In this document: positions 42,203 through 44,317 of the stretch, piece after piece
How positions within the stretch are numbered: position 1 is the first letter of the stretch
Layout of the letters: the number at the start of each line of letters is the position of its first letter
NCBI RefSeq assembly: GCF_001696715.1
Contig: NZ_MBFM01000005.1
Coordinates: forward strand, 575,818-620,134
Source of the DNA: Thauera phenolivorans
Lineage (GTDB): Bacteria > Pseudomonadota > Gammaproteobacteria > Burkholderiales > Rhodocyclaceae
DNA: 44,317 nucleotides
Reading direction: 5' to 3'
Position numbers and translations under genes: made by a program
The notes under the pieces: generated by a model
Seen by the model: only the letters and a program-made list of their open reading frames with translations
Database searches by the model: none
What the model was told of the DNA's origin: nothing

Positions 42203-44029
42203 ATGTGTGGCATCGTCACCGCCATTTCCACCCGTAACGTCGTTCCCGTGCTGCTCGAGGGCCTGCGCAAGCTCGAGTACCGCGGCTACGACTCGGCCGG
42301 GCTTGCCGTGCTCTCCGGCGAACTCGCCCGCCTGCGCGCCGCCGGCCGCGTCGCCGAACTCGCCGCGCTCGCCGACGCGCGCGAACTCTCCGCCCACATC
42401 GGCATCGCCCACACTCGCTGGGCCACCCACGGCGTGCCCTCCGAGCGCAACGCCCACCCGCACATCTCGGGCGGCCTCGCGGTGGTACACAACGGCATCA
42501 TCGAGAACTTCGAGGCGATCAAGACCCGCCTGCAGGGCGAAGGCTACGTGTTCGAGTCCGAGACCGACACCGAGGCGATCGCCCACCTGGTGCACGACAA
42601 GCTCAAGGTCGCTCCCGACCTCTTCGAGGCGGTGCGCCTGGCGACCAACGAACTGCTCGGCGCCTATGCGATCGGCGTCGTTGCCGAGGCCGATCCCTTC
42701 CGCATCATCGTCGCCCGCCGCGGCTCGCCGCTGCTGTTGGGGGTCGGCGAGGACGGCATGTACGCCGCCTCCGACACCGCCGCGCTGCTGCAGGTGACGC
42801 GCAAGGTGGTCTATCTCGAGGACGGCGACCTCGCCGAGCTGCGCCGCGACGGCTACCGCGTGGTTCTCTCCGATGGCAGCCCGGTCGAGCGCGAGGTTCA
42901 TCTGTCGAGCCTGTCGGCCGACGCGGTCGAGCTCGGCAAGTACCGTCACTACATGCAGAAGGAGATCTTCGAGCAGCCGCAGGCGCTGGCCAACACGCTG
43001 GAGATGATCGCCGGCGGCAGCGCGATCGCGCCGCAGGTCTTCGGTGCGCGCGCGGCCGAGGTCTTCGACGGCGTGCATCGGGTGCTGGTGCTCGCCTGCG
43101 GCACCAGCTTCCATGCCGGCCTGGTGGCGCGCTACTGGCTGGAATCGGTCGCGAAGATCCCCTGCACCGTCGAGATCGCCAGCGAATACCGCTACCGCGA
43201 GTCGGTGCCGTGCGAGGACACCCTGGTCGTCGTCATCTCGCAGTCGGGCGAAACCGCCGACACCCTGGCCGCGCTCAAGCATGCCAAGGCGCTCGGCATG
43301 GAGCGCACGCTGGCGATCTGCAACGTGCCGGAATCGGCGATCGTGCGCGAGGCCGCGCTGCGCTTCATCACCCGCGCCGGTCCCGAGATCGGCGTCGCCT
43401 CCACCAAGGCCTTCACCACCCAGCTCGCCGCGCTCGCGCTGCTCACGCTGGCGCTCGCCAAGCTCAAGGGCCGCCTCGACGCCGACGCCGAGGCCCGCCA
43501 GCTCGACGGCCTGCGTCACCTGCCGGTAGCCGTGCAGAAGGTGCTCGAGCTCGAACCCGAGATCGAGCGCTGGGCCCAGCGCTTCGCTTCCAAGGAGCAC
43601 GCGCTGTTCCTCGGCCGCGGCAGTCACTGGCCGATCGCGATGGAAGGCGCGCTCAAGCTCAAGGAGATCTCCTACATCCACGCCGAGGCCTACGCCGCCG
43701 GCGAACTCAAGCACGGCCCGCTCGCCCTGGTCGACCGCGACATGCCGGTGATCGCGATCGCTCCCGCCGACGAGCTGCTGGAAAAGCTCAAGTCGAACCT
43801 GCAGGAAGTCCGCGCCCGCGGCGGCGAGCTCTACGTCTTCGCCGATGCCGGCAGCGAGATCCCCGAGTCGGAAGGCGTGCACATCCTCCACATGCCCGAG
43901 CACTACGGCATGCTGTCCCCGATCCTCCACGTGATCCCGCTGCAGCTGCTGTCGTATCACGCGGCGCTGGTGAAGGGGACGGATGTGGATAAGCCGCGGA
44001 ACCTGGCGAAATCGGTGACGGTGGAGTGA
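42203..44029 (+). CDS. glmS: Glutamine--fructose-6-phosphate aminotransferase
   Basis: GlmS makes glucosamine-6-phosphate from fructose-6-phosphate and glutamine, the entry to UDP-GlcNAc synthesis completed by the adjacent glmU. The 608-residue length is standard. C2 after the start Met is the glutaminase nucleophile (MCGIVTAIS). HTRWATHG near 73, two SIS isomerase domains (about 285-425 and 455-600) and the C-terminal [12 protein letters not shown] are all present. AAGGAAG precedes the ATG. From about 43951 to the stop the codon choice shifts (TAT, GAT, GGG, CGG, AAA, repeated GCG and ACG) although the protein sequence stays conserved. Confidence 0.97.
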
Positions 44030-44049
44030 TTCCGGGAGGGGGCTGCCTT
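43951..44049 (+). other. attTn7-type target region at the 3' end of glmS
   Basis: In Tn7, TnsD (TniQ) recognises the conserved last codons of glmS and directs insertion about 25 bases beyond the stop codon. The corresponding codons here encode the conserved [12 protein letters not shown] end. The 20 bases after the stop (44030-44049) separate it from a transposon-like TGT end at 44050, matching the expected distance. The region is inferred from homology of position; protein binding is not shown. Confidence 0.65.
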
Positions 44050-44099
44050 TGTTGTCCCACGCAATTAATGTCGACAACGTGGCAATAAAGTCGAAAACG
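44050..44099 (+). mobile_element. Candidate end of a Tn7-like transposon (TnsB-type repeats)
   Basis: The sequence begins TGTTGTCCCAC, with the TGT terminus of Tn7-family ends. Two tandem repeats follow: GCAATTAATGTCGACAACG (44061-44079) and GCAATAAAGTCGAAAACG (44082-44099), starting 21 bases apart. Their core resembles TnsB sites: Tn7 itself carries GACAATAAAGTC, and the run CAATAAAGTC is identical. Closely packed sites next to glmS are what a Tn7 right end shows. The rest of the element, its other end and any tns genes lie outside the window, so a degenerate remnant cannot be excluded. Confidence 0.6.
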
Positions 44100-44124
44100 C
44101 CCGGGAGATGCCTGGGCGCTTTCG
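44092..44124 (+). terminator. Hairpin downstream of glmS, possible terminator
   Basis: CGAAA (44092-44096) pairs with TTTCG (44120-44124), and after one mismatch 44098-44105 pairs with 44111-44118 (8 bp with one G-T), closing on the loop AGATG. The bases that follow (TTTCGG) are only weakly T-rich. It partly overlaps the second TnsB-like repeat. It could end the glmUS transcript or be part of the element's end. Confidence 0.45.
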
Positions 44125-44221
44125 TTTCGGACGATGTGCGTGTTAGAGACCTCGGGGAGGCCCTCTATTCAGCGACCGACGGTCTACCTCGAATGGACAG
44201 TGTTGCGCGACTGGCAGTAGT

Positions 44222-44280
44222 TCGGCCTTATGTGGAGCTCCACATAAGGCCGATTATGTAGATGCCTCGATTATGTTGAG
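44222..44280. repeat. Perfect 32-bp palindrome plus TTATGT boxes
   Basis: Bases 44222-44253 form a perfect palindrome, two 16-base halves TCGGCCTTATGTGGAG and its complement, without a spacer. Two more related boxes follow in direct orientation: TTATGTAGAT (44254-44263) and TTATGTTGAG (44271-44280). With the two halves of the palindrome this makes four TTATGT-type boxes in 59 bases. Such clusters are typical of recombinase or partition-type protein binding sites. I cannot name the protein. Confidence 0.7.
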
Positions 44281-44317
44281 CTTCCGGGGTAGCAGGCCTT
44301 AGATCCCAGTGTGCTCG

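Follow-up and report, generated by a model that had tools for sequence, protein, structure and literature searches.

The sequence directly behind glmS in the stretch of DNA analysed here (the window: 44,317 nt of Thauera phenolivorans GCF_001696715.1, contig NZ_MBFM01000005.1, positions 575,818–620,134 of the forward strand) is very probably the right end of a Tn7-like transposon at attTn7, in a copy that is most likely a remnant, with a RIT-type element inserted 175 bp inside the end (at 44228) and contig C10 of this genome (G000) broken at that point. This reading is built on the array of repeated sites, on its fixed distance from glmS, and on two relatives in which a copy of this family sits complete at glmS, in both cases with inverted ends and a 5-bp duplication. 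In the window genome, as far as searched, neither tns genes belonging to this copy nor a second end were found, and the element is recognised through its relatives. The features of the window are as follows.

42203..44029, + strand: glmS, an open reading frame with its stop at 44029; the presumed TnsD/attTn7 target lies at its 3′ end
44030..44052, no strand: spacer from the glmS stop to the element, 23 bases, differing among relatives
44053..44062, + strand: right terminus TGTCCCACGC (family form TGTTCC...), placed by comparison with relatives
44064..44078, + strand: putative TnsB site 1, ATTAATGTCGACAAC, slightly degenerate; similar arrays occur in relatives
44084..44098, + strand: putative TnsB site 2, AATAAAGTCGAAAAC, a repeat of site 1
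44098..44118, + strand: terminator-like hairpin inside the end, a possible replacement glmS terminator; similar hairpins occur in some relatives
44119..44227, + strand: R-proximal part of the element, similar to G004 as far as about 44184 and to G017 as far as about 44225
44228..44317, − strand: end of the RIT-type element (20-bp palindrome, GGCC, inverted repeat from 44252, and interior sequence up to the contig end)

The repeat array behind glmS

The two tandem repeats after glmS reported in the initial annotation are present, at 44064 and 44084, with a period of 20 (44064–44098), and on comparison with relatives they are the right-end array of putative TnsB sites of a Tn7-like family at attTn7. 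The same annotation started the element at a TGT at 44050, 20 bp past the glmS stop; alignment with relatives (TGTTCCGCGCAATTAAAG and others) shifts the terminal TGT to 44053, 23 bp past the stop. Both the terminus and site 1 in the window differ from the family form. A pattern for the pair, written to fit this very pair, had a single match in the window and none in 100 dinucleotide shuffles, so that chance does not account for the pair, whilst the single core AATAAAGTCGA, with at most one mismatch, matched once against 0.03 expected. A pattern search of the whole window genome returned the glmS array and one single site with two mismatches, and nothing else.

The glmS 3′ region was matched in 22 of the 29 genomes of the genus, including that of the window, and the end lies behind glmS in nine of the 22 (the window genome, G001, G004, G005, G007, G009, G010, G017 and G022); G007, G009 and G010 have one site only, and the rest of the 22 have other sequence at this position. 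A scan of 199 family genomes from 68 genera recovered the tandem pattern in 19 genomes and 12 genera, and its reversed control in none. An exact scan of the genome collection returned 33 stretches, some of them the same contigs as in our G-numbered genomes; 29 belong to records whose names we take to be those of Betaproteobacteria, and 17 have a glmS match. The exact pattern had no match in viral contigs, and BLAST of the 96-bp end against plasmids gave none.

The position of the end relative to glmS and the hairpin were each counted over 52 tandem ends, with every distinct sequence counted once and the single-site ends of G007, G009 and G010 outside both sets. The two sets differ in that the distance set includes L178, with L157 outside its range, and the hairpin set includes L157, L178 having been dropped from the 53 ends found as it had too little inner sequence. 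In the distance set, glmS lies at most 400 bp upstream of 34 ends and not so in the other 18; the TGT was recognised in 31 of the 34 glmS-linked ends, and is located 22–25 bp past the stop in 30 of these, the window (23 bp) among them, and 29 bp past it in one.

Several other arrangements were seen in these loci. The tandem motif of L157 (165–199), at the start of a Rossellomorea aquimaris contig in a Bacillota-named record, has different flanks and may reflect chance, another element or contamination. Behind glmS in G028 (L038) there is a different repeat pair, AAATAAAAAGTGTAAAC / AAATAAAAACTGTCAG, perhaps another type of Tn7-like end, and sequence similar to this pair is found, inverted, beside the end in L174. 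Copies of ~0.15–0.5 kb with inverted sites at both ends, like miniature elements, are present in G199 (L129 from 1569), G118 (L123) and L169. Two right-type ends with hairpin lie inverted and 7.6 kb apart at glmS in G175 (C1:758.3–766.0 kb; L120), with no target duplication. A non-coding repeat of ~107 bp (L008 10034–10140) is found in G094, G118, G175, G005 and G065 at no more than ~250 bp from the right end, on its inner side; in G007 it is about 1 kb further in than the end, and in the window genome it flanks both RIT copies.

Complete copies in relatives and the distribution of tns genes

Tn7 makes a 5-bp target duplication, and duplications of this length were found at the family's complete copies. 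In G001, of the same genus, a 31,217-bp insertion splits native sequence that is seen as an empty site in G008 and G013; the comparison with relatives lacking the insert, which had been proposed in the initial annotation, thus sets a filled site beside empty ones. The insertion starts TGTTCCGCGCAA and ends TTGCGCGGAACA (TGTTCC...GGAACA), with 12-bp inverted termini, and is flanked on both sides by TCCGG, a 5-bp duplication when read against the empty site in G008. Its right end contains three adjacent sites at a 20-bp period, and its left end three sites spaced 54 and 69 bp. The cargo includes a SIR2-HerA pair, genes for efflux and for two-component systems, and a group II intron protein. The genome of G001, an assembly of 320 contigs rated 99% complete, gave no TniQ or TnsB-like match.

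The second complete copy, in Hydrogenophaga sp. MAG_35 (G236), spans about 58.4 kb behind glmS and has the same right-end type, GTCAG on both sides, termini TGTTCC...GAACA, and a left end of two sites 68 bp apart. Its genes specify TnsA, a TnsB-like protein, TnsD, a second TniQ protein and, at the position expected of TnsC, an AAA protein, so that the family includes, with this end type and at this site, a member with TnsABC and TnsD/TniQ. Pfam recognised TnsA, TniQ and TnsD (PF15978, 4e-53). The TnsB proteins drew no Pfam match, and the Hydrogenophaga TnsB was therefore compared with PDB sequences, where it matched the Tn7 protein 7pik (1e-35); in the same type of search the other three also matched their Tn7 counterparts, TnsC 7mbw (8e-16), TnsD 8glu (6e-11), and TnsA 1f1z (3e-16).

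In Vogesella oryzae two copies lie in tandem, with ATGAG(T), a 6-bp repeat noticed by eye, at their boundaries and a site spacing of 54/68 bp. In Vogesella aquatica a TnsD gene lies directly inside the end, and in Limnobacter parvus the right end precedes a sigma-factor gene and is followed, 8–13 kb inside, by a tnsABC-tniQ operon. Inverted TGT...ACA termini are present in G001 and G236, with the window showing the TGT half only; close right-end and spaced left-end arrays are present in G001, G236 and V. oryzae; and the 5-bp target duplication is seen in relatives only (G001 and G236). Judged by sequence, the relatives' copies are of Tn7 architecture. Left ends proposed by script for 13 right ends gave an exact 5-bp duplication in two cases, four of five bases in one (G145), the 6-bp repeat of V. 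oryzae, and no duplication in nine; the left-end rule is loose, so some of these 13 pairs may be due to chance. Genus-flank and duplication comparisons reached at most ~20 kb downstream of most ends, and the absence of a left end applies to that span.

The TnsB survey covered 56 genomes: 22 of the 29 of the genus, 16 of the family and 18 reached by way of loci. In these three sets 9, 15 and 7 genomes, respectively, are glmS-linked. Two of these 31 glmS-linked genomes, G065 and G236, have a close TnsB, 41–43% identical to the Limnobacter parvus protein; the other 29, G001 included, have none above 40% identity. Any TnsB match at all was obtained in seven of the 31, the weaker ones being in G000, G010, G035, G061 and G239, and none in the remaining 24. 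These counts, together with the clean, cargo-only copy of 31.2 kb in G001, its target duplication intact, lead us to suggest, tentatively, that the betaproteobacterial glmS site may be held mainly by transposase-less Tn7-like elements (cargo-only, mini and solo ends) with a common end code, which rare autonomous members, like that of Hydrogenophaga, would mobilise in trans; surveys anchored on TnsB would miss them. TniQ genes, some of them from other elements, were found in 10 of 29 genus genomes, 9 of 16 family genomes and 13 of the 18 genomes behind the 19 loci of the loci set. A TniQ match is missing in seven of the nine genus genomes carrying the end.

The RIT-type element and the probable continuation of the island

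The right edge of the window is the end of contig C10, and its last 90 bases are those of a RIT-type element which begins at 44228. The presence of this element 175 bp inside the end breaks the assembly, which explains why the contig ends where it does. A full RIT copy was located at C1:739.8–743.0 kb (L008 6811–10040), with 3182 bp between the outer repeats; it has the three adjacent, overlapping tyrosine recombinase genes of the RIT class (L008 6948–9908), with Phage_integrase in all three. The two copies are oppositely oriented relative to similar flanks, with a palindrome on one side and GCAGCTGAGG on the other. This arrangement suggests that RIT prefers targets near CGGCC.

At its right end, C1 bears the opposite end of this RIT repeat, and the likely order is therefore C10, RIT, C1 reversed. 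When the RIT is removed, the window and the C1 end are collinear with right ends of other genera (G094 best, G118 and others), including a block ~180 bp inside which is also present next to both RIT copies. The C10–C1 join is drawn from repeat junctions and collinearity rather than from reads; on this basis, the island probably continues on C1 reversed. This part includes an addiction-module (toxin-antitoxin-like) pair, an integrase, a transposase of IS type, a HAD-type protein, an AAA ATPase and the second RIT copy; the undescribed cargo anticipated in the initial annotation was borne out only weakly. About 27 kb into reversed C1 lie matches, at 81–89% identity, to the genes located behind glmS in G024 and G026, so that the island probably ends before that point. 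For G004, whose glmS region gives the best match within the genus, the downstream flank did not turn up in the 98 kb of reversed C1.

No left-end site was detected in these 98 kb, and no TniQ or TnsB-like match near the likely continuation, the latter result resting on TniQ and two TnsB queries; a search with the Mu-transpos_C family gave no match, and its controls likewise gave none. One refuting outcome named in the initial annotation, the lack of a matching inverted end and of tns genes over ~100 kb, applies to the window genome as far as searched. The Tn7-like end proposed there is nonetheless upheld by relatives, which show such an end at attTn7, through the inverted end, 5-bp duplication and empty site of G001 and the linked tnsABCD at the same site in Hydrogenophaga MAG_35. 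The wording of the annotation, a Tn7-like transposon or its remnant, is narrowed towards the second half: with neither tns genes alongside nor a left end that could be recognised, the copy in the window genome is most likely a transposase-less remnant.

TniQ and TnsB-like matches occur in the window genome only at C1:27–34 kb behind sodB, more than 700 kb from the C1 end. A separate Tn7-like element is located there (G000:C1:24.65–35.1 kb; L012 4654–15131), with TnsA-like (by eye), TnsB-like, TnsC-like, TnsD (PF15978) and second TniQ genes; it has three ACAATATATTCGTAA sites with a terminator-like hairpin after them, and no left end was found in the stretches examined. A copy of this operon, 95% identical over 25 kb, is carried by G010. 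The operon was considered as the other part of the glmS element and rejected, given its distance, the different motif of its three sites and its location behind sodB.

Mechanism, competing readings and known systems

In the mechanism outlined for this copy, TnsD would have bound the end of glmS and TnsABC would have inserted the element 23 bp downstream, with its right end adjoining the gene; guidance by TnsD is suggested by the fixed distance and by the relative with tns genes. A RIT element has split the copy by inserting at 44228, and the hairpin at 44098–44118 may now end glmS transcription.

A related possibility is that the end is domesticated, the rest of the element having been lost and the end kept since its hairpin replaced the displaced glmS terminator. 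A hairpin with a T-rich stretch is positioned within 110 nt inside 14 of the 52 ends, compared with 7 of 1040 shuffles, and G004 keeps the end though synteny with G005 resumes 281 bp past the stop. Tn7 itself reportedly inserts into the glmS terminator, going by the title of Gay et al. 1986. We regard domestication as rather unlikely: 38 of the 52 ends, the window's included, have no such hairpin under this rule, which missed the window's own. The latter was found by a looser rule only; it abuts the second repeat and, with one found against 0.4 in shuffles of the short region, is weak evidence when taken alone.

It is improbable that the window copy is a still mobile, transposase-less element, with a left end beyond 98 kb or too diverged and movement in trans by the TnsABC+D of another element. 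Such an arrangement has a parallel in G001, a genome with no TniQ or TnsB-like match whose cargo-only copy has its two ends and a duplication, and both window sites are still recognisable; against it stand the failure to find a left-end site over 98 kb of reversed C1, the G024/G026 flank genes that place the probable end of the island earlier, and the degeneracy of site 1 and the terminus. The adjoining terminator-like hairpin, the one-site versions in G007, G009 and G010, and the seven of nine end-carrying genus genomes without a TniQ match could each be accommodated by native glmS 3′ regulatory or terminator sequence merely resembling a Tn7 end. This we consider very improbable and have rejected, as G001 and MAG_35 have exact insertion boundaries, an inverted second end and a duplication, G001 has its empty-site counterparts, and the same arrays occur away from glmS in 18 of the 52 ends (for example at the sigma-factor gene in Limnobacter parvus, and in Vogesella). 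The right end of a Tn7-like transposon, in a remnant copy, is thus the reading that we retain.

Tn7 inserts about 20 bp after glmS (available portion of PMC2918618), and has close TnsB sites at its right end, next to the target, and spaced sites at its left end (available portion of PMC11406308). Compared with Tn7 at attTn7 of Escherichia coli, as those portions describe it, the family is alike in its distance from glmS, its close and spaced site arrays, the 5-bp duplication in relatives and the TnsABCD homologues of MAG_35. It differs in its 20-bp site CAATAAAGTCGAAAAC, the terminus TGTTCC and the second tniQ gene, and in that the window genome has no tns genes with the end. The TnsB-anchored catalogue of Benler et al. 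2021 (PMC8649781), which in its available text comprises 6,549 Tn7-like transposons, likewise defines boundaries by arrays of ~20-bp TnsB sites; that survey, as described there, scans around tnsB, so that ends and elements lacking tnsB (the window, G001) fall outside its method. Among the literature matches listed, no title or abstract start concerned this end family or tns-less copies at glmS. A simple sequence rule, TGTTCC and then CAATAAAGTCGAAAAC at a 20-bp period, 22–25 bp after glmS, offers a means of locating transposase-less Tn7-like islands and, with them, their defence cargo, such as the SIR2-HerA pair of G001.

RIT (recombinase in trio) elements are around 3,500 bp according to the available part of PMC3414803, and the copies described here share with the elements of that account the trio of overlapping recombinase genes, the end inverted repeat with palindrome, and the presence of two copies per genome. 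They differ from them in their opposite orientation relative to similar flanks, and in that one of the two lies inside a Tn7-like end.
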